Assembly: GCA_004299845.1 (NCBI GenBank)
Contig: CP036201.1
Coordinates: forward strand, 2,108,001 to 2,172,000
DNA from: Verrucomicrobia bacterium S94
Lineage (GTDB): Bacteria; Verrucomicrobiota; Kiritimatiellia; Kiritimatiellales; Pontiellaceae
DNA length: 64,000 bases
Reading direction: 5' to 3'
Within the stretch, counting starts at the first letter, position 1; the number at the start of each line of letters is the position of its first letter. Of the stretch, positions 24,324-31,706 are shown one piece after another. The position numbers and the translations under genes are program-made. The notes beneath the pieces were generated by a model, which was not told the DNA's origin, made no database searches, and worked only from the letters and a program-made list of their open reading frames with translations.

Positions 24324-26186
24324 ATGCATATAGTGGATTGGATTATCGTCGCCGCATTTCTCGGTGTTAACATTGCCATTGGAATTTATTTCAGCCGCCG
24401 GGGCGGAAAAAATGTGGATTCCTTTTTTGTTTCGGGTCGATCGTTGAAGTGGTATGTCGCCGGAGCTTCGATGATTGCCACTAATTTTGCATCCGACACT
24501 CCCCTTTGGGTCGGCACCTGCGTCCGGGAATCCGGGCTGCACGCCGTCTGGCGATACTGGTCTCCACTCATCGGCTGTGCACTGGGCGTGGCCCTGTTCA
24601 GCCGCCTCTGGCGCCGCACCCGCGTTGTTACGGATAATGAAATGCTGGAACTGCGTTACAACGGGAAAGGGGCTCAGCTTCTGCGGGGAGTTACAGCCGG
24701 AGCCGGCGCATTACTGCTCTGCCCGATGATTATCGGCTGGGTCTGTAAAGCCATGATCACTATTGCTCAGGAAGCACTGGGAGTATCCGGACAGACCTTC
24801 TCCATTATCGGCATGGAAATGCCTGCCGAGATGGCCGTTACAGTTGTGGTTATGGCCTGTGCCATTGTGGTTTCAACCTGCGGCGGCATGATGGGTGCGG
24901 CCTACTCCGACTTCCTGCAGTTTCTTCTCGCGACGCTCGGCACCTTCGTGCTGGCCTGGCTCGCCATTCAGGAAGTCGGCGGTTTGAGTTCCATGGTGGA
25001 GCAACTGCAGTCGAATACCTCCTGGATGGGGCACGAAATGAATATTGCACCCCAAATCAGCACCGGAATCACTCCTGAAGGAAAACCCGGGGTAATGTCC
25101 ATATGGAATGCTATCGGCTTCTTCGGAATCCTCTGGTGGGGCAATGCATTATGCGGCGGACACCAGGCTCAGCGCCTTCTGTCGTGCAAAAATACAAAAC
25201 ATGCCTCAAATGCACTGCTGATGTTCGCCATCATCTATTTCGCCGTCATCTGCTGGCCATGGATTGCCGTGGCTCTCTCTTCCCTGATTGTTTTCCCGGA
25301 TATGGGCGAAGCCGGCCACGATGCGGCTTATCCACGAATGATGCTGCACATTCTTCCGATCGGACTCCGGGGCATTATGATGGGAACCATGATTGCCGCT
25401 TTCACCTCCACGGTACAGACCATGTTCAACTGGGGGTCGAGCTATATCGTTAATGATATTTACCGCCGGTTTGCCGTCCGGGAAGCTTCGGACAAACACT
25501 ATGTGCGGGTTTCCCGTGTCGTTACTGTACTGGTTGGAGTACTGGGGGGCTTCATCGCTTTTAAAGCGGACAACATTCTTCAGCTGCTGGACATCTTTTT
25601 TGTAGTCGGCATCTGCTCTACCATGGTTGCAGTCCTGCGCTGGCTCTGGTGGCGGCTGACTGTCGAGGGCGAAGTTGCAGCATTTATCCTCAATTATGTA
25701 CTCGGAATTCTTATGCTCTTCGGCCATCGGATTTTCGGTCTCGACACCCCGCTTTTCGATCGTCCTATGGGCTGGCTGTTCAACCTTCCTGATGAGATAA
25801 GTTTCACCCAGAGCGCCGATATGCTCGGCGCCCGCATGCTCGTTGTCATGTTCATCAGCACCGCCGCAGCCATCATCATTTCGCTACGGACAAAACCGAC
25901 CGACATGAAACTTCTGACCTCCTTCGTTCAACGAACACGCATTCACCGCTTCGGCTGGGCACCGGTCGTCGACCGGATTGAAGGCTATAAACCGGCCCAA
26001 ACACTTCCTCAGGTCTTAACGGACTGGATTTTAATTACAGCCACTATCTGCTCACTGCTCTTTATGTTTGCAAACATCCTGCGCAACCGCCTGCCCGAAG
26101 CCGCCGGAATGCTGGTCCTTTTCGGTGCACTTCTTTTCTGGGTCGTCCATCGAACCAGAAAGGAACTCAATGAAGACGATGCATAA
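24324..26186 (+). CDS. Sodium:solute symporter (SSS) family transporter
   Basis: This 620-residue polytopic protein has about 13 membrane segments. The N terminus (VDWIIVAAFLGVNIAIGIYFSRRG...DSFFVSGRSLKWYVAGASMIATNFA) matches the SSS family, in which sodium drives uptake of sugars, amino acids or other solutes. A later segment (RGIMMGTMIAAFTSTVQTMFNWGSSYIVNDIYR) contains the conserved helix 8 region with the Ser/Thr pair used for the Na2 site. The substrate cannot be read from sequence, although in sulfatase-rich PVC genomes such carriers often take up sugars. GGGA lies upstream of the ATG. Confidence 0.92.
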   Translation: MHIVDWIIVAAFLGVNIAIGIYFSRRGGKNVDSFFVSGRSLKWYVAGASMIATNFASDTPLWVGTCVRESGLHAVWRYWSPLIGCALGVALFSRLWRRTRVVTDNEMLELRYNGKGAQLLRGVTAGAGALLLCPMIIGWVCKAMITIAQEALGVSGQTFSIIGMEMPAEMAVTVVVMACAIVVSTCGGMMGAAYSDFLQFLLATLGTFVLAWLAIQEVGGLSSMVEQLQSNTSWMGHEMNIAPQISTGITPEGKPGVMSIWNAIGFFGILWWGNALCGGHQAQRLLSCKNTKHASNALLMFAIIYFAVICWPWIAVALSSLIVFPDMGEAGHDAAYPRMMLHILPIGLRGIMMGTMIAAFTSTVQTMFNWGSSYIVNDIYRRFAVREASDKHYVRVSRVVTVLVGVLGGFIAFKADNILQLLDIFFVVGICSTMVAVLRWLWWRLTVEGEVAAFILNYVLGILMLFGHRIFGLDTPLFDRPMGWLFNLPDEISFTQSADMLGARMLVVMFISTAAAIIISLRTKPTDMKLLTSFVQRTRIHRFGWAPVVDRIEGYKPAQTLPQVLTDWILITATICSLLFMFANILRNRLPEAAGMLVLFGALLFWVVHRTRKELNEDDA

Positions 26187-28028: not shown

Positions 28029-28236
28029 TATCCTTAGAATTGTTTTTCGATGCGTAAATACCGATAGTTACCCAGCCTCTAATAAGATTGATTCTCAATA
28101 TCAAAAACACCTCTATCGCAGAGTCTTCGGTTCGTTAACAGCCCTGCGGCGATCAACCCTGCAAACATCAGAAGCCATTTCTGCAACCTTTCCCGTCCCT
28201 GTCATGCTCAAATCCGAAATCCATACAAACGCGTCG

Positions 28237-28291
28237 TTATTTATATTTAATCTAAATAAGAATTTGACTTGCTGCTAGGCTGCGTTAAATT
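28237..28291 (+). promoter_or_regulatory. Operator-like inverted repeat and promoter for the porin/flavoprotein operon
   Basis: TTATTTA (28237-28243) and TAAATAA (28253-28259) form a perfect 7-bp inverted repeat with a 9-bp spacer. Immediately downstream TTGACT (28264-28269) and TAAATT (28286-28291) are 16 bp apart. The promoter is about 240 bp before the first gene, so the mRNA would have a long leader. The regulator is unknown. Confidence 0.5.
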
Positions 28292-28298
28292 CACGGCG

Positions 28299-28391
28299 TT
28301 TTCCGGATATCGGAAAAGTTTCCTGTCAGGGTGGTCCTGAAGGCTGTTGTTAAACGAGATAATCCCAGCGGGCGGGTTCTGCGGCTGAACC
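28299..28391 (+). promoter_or_regulatory. Structured 5' leader of the porin/flavoprotein operon
   Basis: Three short hairpins follow one another: 28299-28305 with 28311-28317, 28326-28330 with 28336-28340, and 28375-28379 with 28387-28391. The rest of the leader to 28525 holds no convincing gene. I could not match it to a known riboswitch consensus (cobalamin, TPP, SAM, Mn and Moco were considered by eye). It may be a regulatory leader, or simply local pairing. Confidence 0.3.
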
Positions 28392-28531
28392 GTGTGCCGG
28401 ATCGTAAAACTATGCCCGAACAATATCATTCCAGACCGTTTGAGGACTGCACTTTTCCGCCTGTCACTATGCCCCTCTTTCTACCGGTTCCTCTTCGTTC
28501 GCGGCCGATTTAATAGACAAAGGAGATGCAA

Positions 28532-29761
28532 ATGAACTGTAAGAACATAATGATCATCGGTCTGACCGCTGCAGCAACCGTGACTCTGGCCGGAGACCGT
28601 GACGCCGAGCGACTGGCTGCACTCGAAGAACAGGTGAAAGCTTTAACCGGTGAAGTGGAAAAGGACCGTTTCGCCGATGTTATCCCCGAACTTGGAGAAT
28701 CCGTTTACGGCATGGGCCCTGCGGCATCGAAGGTCTACAATAAAGACCAGGGTCTGTCCATCGGCGGTTACGGCGAAGTGCTCTATGAAAACCACAACGG
28801 GTCAGACAGCACCAAAGACGATCAGTTCGACATGCTTCGCGCCATCCTCTATTTCGGATATAAATTTAACGAGAAGTGGGTACTCAACACTGAAATCGAA
28901 CTTGAACACGCTAATGAAGCCTTTGTTGAATTCGCCTATCTGGATTATCTTCACAGTGATGCGCTAAACTTCCGCGGCGGTCTGATACTTATTCCGGTCG
29001 GCATCATAAACGAACTGCACGAACCCACCGTCTTCCTCACGGCCAAACGCTCCATGGTTGAAAATAAAATCATCCCGACCACCTGGCGTGAAAACGGTGC
29101 CGGTATTTTCGGTGATATCGGACCGGTCAGCTACAAAGTTTATGTCGTCACCAGTCTGGACGGCAACGAGATCGACGCGGATGGTGTACGCGGGGGACGG
29201 CAGAAAGGCTCCAAAGCGGTTGCCGAAGACTTCTCGCTCGTCACCCGTGCAGACTGGGAAGTCACACCGGGATTCACCATCGGCGGCTCAATCTACGGCG
29301 GTGAACAAGGGCAGAATACCGGCGTAGACGCAGGATTCATGCTGGGAGAAGCCCACATTATGGCCCGCAAAGGCGGCTTCACATTCAACGCACTGGTAAC
29401 AGCAACCAAACTGAGCAATGCGGATGACCTGAGTGTTGCTAACAGTTTGCCAACTTCCGAGTATATCGGCGAACAGATGTTTGGCTGGTACACCGAATTC
29501 GGCTACGATATCTTTTCAAACTCAGACAAAGGGGAACTCCAGTTGACCCCGTACCTTCGGCTGGAGCAGGTGGATACACAGAGCAAAAAAGCGGCAGGCT
29601 CCACCGTCAACGCCGATCTGTATCGTTACGACATCATCACAGCCGGCCTGAACTTCCAGCCGATTGATGAAGTCGTGTTCAAACTTGAACATCAGTTCAT
29701 CCGGAACGGAAACAATGACAACCTTGATCAGACCAACCTGGCTATGGGCTATGTCTTTTAA
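28532..29761 (+). CDS. Outer-membrane porin-like protein
   Basis: The 409-residue protein has a signal peptide (MNCKNIMIIGLTAAATVTLA), a short coiled coil (RLAALEEQVKALTGEVEK) typical of porins anchored to peptidoglycan or trimeric, then amphipathic strands. Segments such as LSIGGYGEVLYENH and FEFAYLDYL-like stretches resemble carbohydrate- or phosphate-selective porins, and the protein ends in Phe (LAMGYVF). The ATG at 28532 has AAGGAG 6 nt upstream; an ATG at 28526 touches the Shine-Dalgarno sequence. It is the first gene of the module with two FMN-binding proteins and a cytochrome-b-like protein, and the last 11 bases overlap the next gene. The solute is unknown. Confidence 0.8.
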   Translation: MNCKNIMIIGLTAAATVTLAGDRDAERLAALEEQVKALTGEVEKDRFADVIPELGESVYGMGPAASKVYNKDQGLSIGGYGEVLYENHNGSDSTKDDQFDMLRAILYFGYKFNEKWVLNTEIELEHANEAFVEFAYLDYLHSDALNFRGGLILIPVGIINELHEPTVFLTAKRSMVENKIIPTTWRENGAGIFGDIGPVSYKVYVVTSLDGNEIDADGVRGGRQKGSKAVAEDFSLVTRADWEVTPGFTIGGSIYGGEQGQNTGVDAGFMLGEAHIMARKGGFTFNALVTATKLSNADDLSVANSLPTSEYIGEQMFGWYTEFGYDIFSNSDKGELQLTPYLRLEQVDTQSKKAAGSTVNADLYRYDIITAGLNFQPIDEVVFKLEHQFIRNGNNDNLDQTNLAMGYVF

Positions 29762-30281
29762 GGCAACTTTTTTATCGTGCATACTGCTGGCGGCCTCTGT
29801 GCAGGCGGGGAAATACCCCACTGCAGATGAGGCCGTCCGCCAGATCTTCCCCAAAGCGGTCTCTTTCGGGCGGGAAACACGGCTTTTGACGCAGACACAG
29901 CAACAGGCCGTGGCGGATCTTTCAGCACAGAAAGACATCACAGCCCTGGTGACCCGCTACGCGGTATACAGCGAATCCGGAACATTGGGCTATGCCTATC
30001 TCGACAAACATATGGTACGAACGCTGCCGGAAACCCTGATGGTGGCAGTCGATACCGACAGGAAGCTGGTCGGCATCCGGGTGCTGGCTTTTCGCGAACC
30101 TGCAGAATACATCGCGCGTGACGGTTGGCTGGAACAGTTCCTCGGAAAAACGGTTAAAGATGAAATCCGCATGAAAAAGAACATCGACGGTATCACCGGG
30201 GCCACCCTGACCTCGCGGGCGGTTACACAGTGCGCACGGCGCACACTGGCTATCCATCAGGTCCTCGAACAGCAGGATTGA
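29751..30281 (+). CDS. Secreted FMN-binding (flavinylated) protein
   Basis: This 176-residue protein has a signal peptide (MSFKATFLSCILLAASVQA) and a C-terminal FMN-binding domain. The segment DGITGATLTSRAV near residue 150 contains the Thr-Gly-Ala-Thr motif at which the transferase ApbE covalently attaches FMN (last Thr). Preceding strands (GYAYLDKHMVRTLPE, LVGIRVLAFREPAEY) fit the family seen in RnfG/NqrC. It overlaps the porin by 11 bp and is 2 bp from the next gene, so all three are coupled. It would be a periplasmic one- or two-electron carrier. No apbE is present in the window. Confidence 0.85.
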   Translation: MSFKATFLSCILLAASVQAGKYPTADEAVRQIFPKAVSFGRETRLLTQTQQQAVADLSAQKDITALVTRYAVYSESGTLGYAYLDKHMVRTLPETLMVAVDTDRKLVGIRVLAFREPAEYIARDGWLEQFLGKTVKDEIRMKKNIDGITGATLTSRAVTQCARRTLAIHQVLEQQD

Positions 30282-30283
30282 TC

Positions 30284-30724
30284 ATGACCCGTTCCGACGC
30301 CTGGCTGCTGCACAGCTCCAACGGTCTCGTCATCGTTACCGGGCTTGTTTATGCCTGGATGGCCTACGGCTGTGAATCTGACGATCCCTATGCCATCGTC
30401 GGACACCCCTGGCAGCCGCATATCCAGCATGCCCACATCTGGGTCACTCCTCTGCTGGTTCTCATGCTGGGCCATCTCTGGGCCCGGCATGCAGAACCCC
30501 ACCTGAAGCGGAAAACCGGAAAACGGAAGAACAGCGGATTGAGCATGCTCTATTCGGCACTGCCCATGATTTTTTCAGGATATGCCATAATGACCGCTAT
30601 CGAGCCGGTCTGGCGCAAAACCTGGATTATCGTCCACCTGATGGCCTCACTCATATGGATACTGGGTTACCTTGTTCATTTACTACAGAAAGTTCGCCCA
30701 GTCTCCCCCCTATCCCGAAACTGA
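30284..30724 (+). CDS. Small four-helix membrane protein, candidate diheme cytochrome b
   Basis: The 146-residue protein has four membrane helices (about residues 12-28, 52-68, 88-105 and 113-135). Two helices carry paired histidines at cytochrome-b spacing: H51 and H64 in helix 2 and H118 and H132 in helix 4. This pattern in b-type cytochromes and ferric reductases holds two stacked hemes. Other histidines (H10, H41, H46, H49, H69) lie at membrane edges. A Lys-rich cytoplasmic loop (KRKTGKRKN) separates the pairs of helices. I do not assign it to a named family. Placement between two flavinylated periplasmic proteins suggests it passes electrons from the quinone pool outward. Confidence 0.7.
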   Translation: MTRSDAWLLHSSNGLVIVTGLVYAWMAYGCESDDPYAIVGHPWQPHIQHAHIWVTPLLVLMLGHLWARHAEPHLKRKTGKRKNSGLSMLYSALPMIFSGYAIMTAIEPVWRKTWIIVHLMASLIWILGYLVHLLQKVRPVSPLSRN

Positions 30725-30808
30725 CGCACACACAGATGGCTTTTTACATTTAAGCCCTTGCACCTGATCGTCATAAAACCGTATCTTGCGTCGTTCCCAA
30801 GACAGAGT

Positions 30809-31315
30809 ATGATACGAAACGCAACCATTCTGACAACACTCTGGCTGATCGCATCTACTGTATTAGCTGATACTGTGGAGCAGACCGTAAAAACCGCGCT
30901 CAAAGGCCTGCGGACAGCCGAATCCCCTATCCCCTATTCACGCACAATTAAAGCGCTCTATATCGGCTTCGATGAAAAAGGGAAACCGAAAACCGGTGTG
31001 GCTTTCCGCGAAATCGAATCCTTTAAAACCATCACCGGAGTAGTCATCGTCGATAAAACAGAAACCGGCTACATTCTGCGCGAAGCTGTTTTTCCAGACA
31101 TTGAAAAAATAAAAAATGCCAAGGACCGTAAACAGGTCATGACCGTCCTCGAACAGTTCCGGAATGTTCCGTTCGATCCTCATGCTGAAAAATCGGCCGT
31201 TGATGCCTTGTCCGGTGCCACACGCTATGGGATTAAAACCTCCGGATATCTTAACTACCTTGCGCGCCATATTGCTCTGCAGCTGGAATCGCCGCCCGAA
31301 TGGACCAAACCATAA
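30809..31315 (+). CDS. Second secreted FMN-binding protein
   Basis: This 168-residue protein has a signal peptide (MIRNATILTTLWLIASTVLA) and an FMN-binding domain ending with the motif DALSGATRYG, where ApbE would link FMN to the Thr. It differs from the first FMN-binding protein and is not a recent copy. The start at 30809 was chosen because the signal peptide begins there; the longer frame from 30758 has a non-signal N terminus. An 84-bp gap separates it from the cytochrome-like gene, but no terminator is seen, so it probably belongs to the same transcript. Confidence 0.78.
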   Translation: MIRNATILTTLWLIASTVLADTVEQTVKTALKGLRTAESPIPYSRTIKALYIGFDEKGKPKTGVAFREIESFKTITGVVIVDKTETGYILREAVFPDIEKIKNAKDRKQVMTVLEQFRNVPFDPHAEKSAVDALSGATRYGIKTSGYLNYLARHIALQLESPPEWTKP

Positions 31316-31500
31316 GGATACATACGCTGTACCATTAAGATCGACTGGGAAAATCCTGTGGATTTCCAGACGCCGGAAACGCCCTTTCTACATCCGGAAC
31401 AGATTTTCCTCGGCTTCGACGAAATCGCCCCTGATACAACCGGCTCCCCCCGCCCCTCTTAAGCGCCGTATTCATCGTATCCGCCCCGGTCTCAACCCTA

Positions 31501-31706
31501 TGAACAAAAGCGGTCAGATCATCTGCTGCCTCATCATCGGAATCAGCAATGCCCTGATCCGGAAATTCACCTTTTATACCGAAGCCATCATTTACGTAGT
31601 CCCGATAGAAAACTGCTGCACCCCGAGACTTAATAAAACCGTCTTCCAACTGCGCGGTATGCAGCTGCAGAAACGCACCGGCAAACCGCCGTCCCTTGGC
31701 AAATAA
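31501..31706 (+). CDS. Doubtful short frame in the region 31316-31791
   Basis: The 476-bp stretch between the flavoprotein operon and trxB has no convincing gene. A 68-residue frame (MNKSGQIICCLIIGISNALI...) runs to just before the trxB terminator and has C-rich third positions. A preceding open piece (31351-31461) stops at TAA after a C6 run; adding one C would extend it, but no family is recognisable. These may be remnants of one broken gene. No ribosome-binding site is visible. Confidence 0.25.

Follow-up and report, generated by a model that had tools for sequence, protein, structure and literature searches.

Flavinylated extracytosolic electron-transfer systems draw on several kinds of transmembrane carrier, which the text of a published survey sorts into NapH-, MsrQ-, PepSY-, DsbD-, and NQR/RNF-like classes (Meheust 2021, PMC8238504). 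The module considered here, composed of a porin, a putatively secreted FMN-binding protein (FMN1), and a small four-helix membrane protein, shares with the systems of that text (PMC8238504) a probably secreted FMN_bind protein bearing the ApbE motif, an apbE gene often nearby, a transmembrane carrier, and links to iron assimilation. Judged by its FMN_bind protein and apbE, it belongs among these systems, but departs from those described there in having a carrier outside all five classes and a porin as constant partner. The word porin is absent from the texts of Meheust 2021 and Huang 2024, whose supplementary tables may list members.

Other known families offer partial likenesses. DUF4405 proteins are described in the text of Huang 2024 (PMC10979944 / PMC11334425) as having six helices, and FezC is modelled there with sites formed by homodimerization. 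As in that family, conserved central histidines (four here, in 48/48 relatives) lie within a membrane protein with a link to flavinylation or iron; unlike it, the module protein has four predicted helices and carries all four histidines in one chain, and its scores are sub-threshold. Cytochrome b561 and hydrogenase cytochrome b (PF01292, HyaC) give the best sub-threshold profile match and are among the best sensible fold matches, yet the module protein falls below the Pfam threshold and is partnered by an FMN_bind protein and a porin rather than a hydrogenase. A different kind of resemblance is to Rnf subunits C, D, and G: sibling loci have rnfC-rnfD and an FMN_bind-like gene (FMN2) behind a leader common to both locus types, together with a related porin, whereas the genome under study keeps rnfC and rnfD as remnants and its trio has the four-histidine protein in RnfD’s place. 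LbtU (NF033652) is likewise an outer-membrane porin behind the common leader, in genomes G160 and G248 (150 bits; cut-off 90), although the module porin has no detectable homology to it; LbtU was ruled out as a homologue at an hhalign probability of 0.2%.

The locus comes from Verrucomicrobia bacterium S94 (GTDB lineage Verrucomicrobiota; Kiritimatiellia; Kiritimatiellales; Pontiellaceae), assembly GCA_004299845.1, contig CP036201.1. The window, the whole stretch of DNA that was analyzed, spans 64,000 nt (positions 2,108,001-2,172,000, forward strand); its genome is labelled G000, and other G- and L-numbers label the genomes and loci compared with it. In the window the locus runs from gapdh and the leader through the trio-type porin, FMN1, and the proposed cytochrome to FMN2, an rnfC piece, an rnfD piece, and trxB (Table 1). 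A gene for a sodium:solute symporter family protein (24324-26186) lies upstream of gapdh and gives no sign of a tie to the trio. A first-pass annotation, made from the sequence, had placed four tandem genes (porin, FMN1, the 146-residue membrane protein, FMN2) at positions that the present analysis bears out. In the main its reading of the genes as one module survives, in the form of a trio, while one of its proposed heme ligands (H64) and the membership of FMN2 do not.

Table 1 Features of the locus, in window coordinates
Feature	Position	Strand	Basis
Inverted repeat TTATTTA-N9-TAAATAA, A/T-rich, possible operator	28237..28259	.	Sequence reading; before -35 box
Sigma70-like promoter candidate, TTGACT, 16-nt spacer, TAAATT	28264..28291	+	Sequence reading
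Structured leader RNA, candidate cis-regulatory element	28320..28434	+	Covariance model, covariation
Outer-membrane porin	28526..29761	+	OmpC/OmpF fold match; conserved family
FMN1, probably secreted FMN_bind protein, motif ITGAT	29751..30281	+	PF04205; RnfG chains match in PDB
Four-helix membrane protein, 146 aa, proposed diheme cytochrome b	30284..30724	+	Invariant His; helices; weak profile matches in relatives
FMN2, FMN_bind-like, probably secreted protein, motif LSGAT	30809..31315 (from ATG)	+	PF04205 slightly below cut-off; sibling FMN2 identity
rnfC 5'-end remnant	31331..31438	+	67% identity to L137 RnfC codons 4-39, E 1e-8
rnfD 3'-end remnant	31456..31706	+	tblastn E 2e-23 to L137 RnfD C-terminus

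Evidence that the trio forms a unit comes from its recurrence. Of 346 genomes in the window’s class, 11 encode the membrane protein, as do 35 of 392 sampled from the phylum of the planctomycete Pla163. Across 48 compared loci, a count that excludes the weak phylum matches L013/L031 and L014/L032 (E ~5e-4), porin, FMN_bind protein, and membrane protein follow one another in that order in 45: 11 from the window’s class and phylum, all 33 from Planctomycetota, and a betaproteobacterial plasmid of Ideonella. Conservation of this order across phyla is more than chance, and the earlier expectation that the neighbors travel together is borne out for these three genes. The Ideonella plasmid reads cytochrome c peroxidase-like gene, porin, FMN_bind, apbE, and membrane protein; on two plasmids from Alphaproteobacteria (L044, L045), a DUF6662 barrel takes the porin’s place ahead of FMN_bind, apbE, and a four-histidine membrane protein, and may substitute for the porin as the partner in the outer membrane. 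One locus (L029) has the membrane protein alone, and a search of plasmids with the window cytochrome gave no match. Beyond apbE and feoB, further neighbors showed only lineage synteny, and no multiheme c, terminal reductase, or periplasmic dehydrogenase is conserved at the compared loci.

The membrane protein is predicted to form helices at residues 3-29, 44-75, 79-104, and 108-137 (mean pLDDT 85). All 48 relatives carry H51, H69, H118, and H132, and a second alignment of 47 sequences returned the same invariant set; H41 is kept in 46/48 and H64 in 8/48. Of the histidines originally proposed as ligands, in the pairs H51/H64 and H118/H132, three are among the invariant set and H69 replaces H64, and the idea that homologues would retain four histidines is upheld with that substitution. 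The first loop is acidic, and the second loop and the C-terminus are basic, a charge pattern that would put both termini inside. With the termini so oriented, H51 and H118 would sit close to the periplasmic side of the membrane and H69 and H132 close to its cytoplasmic side; from this predicted topology follows a pairing of H51 with H118 (outer) and H69 with H132 (inner). We infer that the four histidines hold two b hemes, one per membrane face.

A profile scan of the window protein returned only weak CopD (17.8 bits; cut-off 32.1) and UcrQ matches, with no match to PF01292 or PF14358. Among its relatives, 8/47 match PF01292 (b561) at E <= 0.01 (best 8.1e-6) and 5/47 match PF14358 (DUF4405) at the same level (best 3.4e-4). 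Against solved folds, the sensible matches of the four-helix model come from hydrogenase cytochrome b and cytochrome b6, with TM 0.54-0.62 and E-values that are not significant; HyaC-like comparisons give TM 0.54-0.59, probability 0.69-0.89, and E 0.6-1.0.

The porin matches no Pfam porin family in a profile scan, and searching either the porin or the cytochrome sequence against solved structures yielded nothing meaningful. Its predicted structure (mean pLDDT 71) is nonetheless a barrel of OmpC/OmpF type (E ~1e-12, probability 1.0, TM 0.55-0.57), in keeping with the initial call. Bacteroidetes relatives of the porin adjoin imelysin and di-heme oxidoreductase genes, both of which are associated with iron uptake. 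The start of FMN1 overlaps the porin’s end by 11 nt. FMN1 scores 45.1 bits against PF04205 (cut-off 22) and FMN2 20.2-20.6 bits, slightly below; both N-termini look Sec-like by eye. The [ST]GA[ST] motif deviates in 12/47 FMN1 relatives, mostly to AGAT, and its final T or S is kept in nearly all. Two apbE loci exceed the cut-off in the window genome, neither adjoining the module, so the gene that the first-pass annotation suggested seeking elsewhere in the genome is indeed present. In Planctomycetota at least 20 of the 33 loci carry apbE upstream of the porin, and three proteobacterial plasmids have it beside the module. Nqr- and Rnf-type clusters were recognized by eye elsewhere in the window genome.

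Sibling loci offer an explanation for the fourth gene. Five siblings (G248, G424, G423, G035, and G228) have the arrangement gapdh, leader, porin, FMN2, rnfC, rnfD, and in those checked further trxB follows; the sibling RnfC scores 214 bits, slightly below its subfamily cut-off, and NQR2_RnfD_RnfE 169 bits (cut-off 27.7). The window locus holds rnfC and rnfD as remnants only, with nucleotide identities of 75% over 96 nt and 81% over 134 nt (E 2e-31), respectively, and its FMN2 is 69-83% identical to sibling FMN2. FMN2 had been counted as part of the module; it lies outside the conserved trio, pairs with rnfC-rnfD in the siblings, and is probably a leftover of the Rnf-like path on the evidence of this synteny. 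It may still take part in the module, or may be a relic. Each genome of the genus that has any module-family porin has one, of trio type in G000, G127, and G433 and of sibling type in the others, the exceptions being an extra porin fragment at a contig end in G427 and a split reading frame in G440. Sibling-type rnfC is kept elsewhere in G127 and G433, and therefore the trio does not require its loss; the window genome has only a distant match (33% identical, at 844196). A conjectural history of the locus is that one flavin electron path took the place of another while the leader stayed the same.

That leader suggests a link to regulation. The upstream regions of three genus members have a conserved leader in common, and the window copy matches the leader covariance model at E 2.3e-20, with no family found in Rfam 15. 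A pattern search found the leader in 15 of 29 family genomes and nowhere in the reversed control; the covariance model matches 20 of 28 genus genomes and 0 of 318 others in the class sample. Across 17 copies, 85.5% of cells are paired, versus 29-54% when the structure is slid, and 13 pairs are changed on both sides versus 7.1 +/- 1.6 in shuffled alignments, a difference that relatedness can inflate. Folded by itself, one leader sequence reaches an energy no lower than its shuffles do (z 0.46), so the structural case rests on covariation. Ahead of it, the 7-9-7 inverted repeat recurs in L023 and, in related form, at other leader copies, and TTGAC stands at equal distance from most copies. A search for E. 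coli-type Fur boxes gave one Fur-like site near 28090 (P ~0.02 versus shuffles), but nothing comparable lies upstream of the relatives’ trios, and we do not claim a Fur box.

What the leader precedes is suggestive. Of 30 matches, 17 stand ahead of a porin of the module family, six ahead of a gene of AraC type or related to AraC, mostly with flavodoxin next, two ahead of a TonB receptor, and two ahead of an LbtU siderophore porin; the rest are L152 at a contig edge, L170 before a gene of no named function, and the weak L167. In G160 the genes behind the leader encode, in order, a TonB receptor, a periplasmic binding protein, and FecCD permease. A second copy in the window genome (G000:C1:3023899-3024016, minus strand; L145) heads genes for AraC, flavodoxin, and ChuW/HutW (427 bits; cut-off 400), along with one for a TonB receptor of heme type, which scores below its own cut-off on the fragment. 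No leader copy was found at the window genome’s feoB. At L170 and L182 (G127:C240:7639-7751), a good leader copy (E 2e-16) stands before genes for a 116-aa protein and a pseudopilin-like protein, and an iron pattern is not obvious there. A YgbA_NO gene (PF11756) follows the leader-led porin in L139, the copy to which the profile match applies, and a similar gene occurs in L138.

Outside the genus, L024 and L026 have feoB directly upstream of the trio and in the same orientation, and in L047 it adjoins the trio divergently. These are the only three such loci, none in the window’s genus or in Planctomycetota, and because the leader is confined to one genus the link to iron is indirect elsewhere. 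Taken together, gene context suggests a module function in iron acquisition, and we consider it reasonably probable that the trio serves iron assimilation as a periplasmic reductase under iron regulation. In such a scheme, ferric iron or a ferric chelate would be admitted by the porin, and the quinol pool would feed the small membrane protein as a diheme cytochrome b. Electrons would pass from the inner heme (H69/H132) to the outer heme (H51/H118) and on to covalent FMN on FMN1, whose flavin would reduce ferric iron; Fe(II) would then enter via a ferrous transporter such as FeoB. Heme and FMN loading, the quinol donor, the direction of electron flow, and the Fe(III) acceptor are all presumptive elements of this scheme. 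Both the adjacency of feoB and the iron-acquisition genes that share the leader lend support to the path sketched originally, from a cytochrome b to a periplasmic flavin and a porin-admitted metal or solute.

The anatomy of the module fixes no acceptor, and it is conceivable, if rather unlikely, that the same electron path ends on something other than assimilatory iron, serving respiration or redox balance via an extracellular metal, a quinone-like compound, or another porin-admitted solute. The module is widespread in Planctomycetota without feoB, and in the text of the published survey periplasmic reductases are often respiratory (PMC8238504). Against this, siderophore, heme, and flavodoxin genes share the operon’s leader, three relatives have feoB next to the trio, and no multiheme c or terminal reductase is conserved at the loci. 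In Ideonella the gene just before the porin, which is cytochrome c peroxidase-like, fits another acceptor as well, and would suit a supply of electrons for periplasmic peroxide or oxidative-damage defense, for instance peroxidase reduction, with the porin link incidental; the gene is absent from the other 47 loci, however, leaving this an improbable account.

Two further alternatives concern the membrane protein itself. Its histidines could bind metal directly, as in an iron or copper channel, rather than heme: the window protein has the weak CopD match, all ligands reside on one chain, and no family scores above threshold. We regard this as having a slender chance, given that the ligands are predicted to lie at both membrane faces, that relatives match the b561 and DUF4405 profiles (best 8e-6 and 3e-4), that the predicted fold matches hydrogenase cytochrome b, short of significance, and that the partners are FMN_bind and apbE. 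A diheme cytochrome b is in principle reversible, so electrons might flow inward, a periplasmic donor reducing FMN1 and the cytochrome passing electrons to quinone. In Rnf, however, electrons travel outward from the cytosolic side to reach periplasmic FMN, and the sibling porin is paired with Rnf-type subunits; a periplasmic dehydrogenase is not conserved beside the trio either, and inward flow seems very improbable.

Returning to the ferric reductase for iron assimilation, a more far-reaching proposal can be put forward tentatively: the leader would be a new class of iron-responsive cis-regulatory RNA marking an iron-starvation regulon in the genus, with the trio a dedicated periplasmic ferric reductase built on minimal diheme cytochromes b of an unnamed family. 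The module would give flavinylated electron-transfer systems one more kind of membrane carrier, small and as yet without a name, and would assign a role to hypothetical proteins encoded next to apbE in Planctomycetota and Proteobacteria. It would also link an outer-membrane porin to periplasmic iron reduction, and the common leader offers a direct and testable way into the iron regulation of a group that has been little studied.
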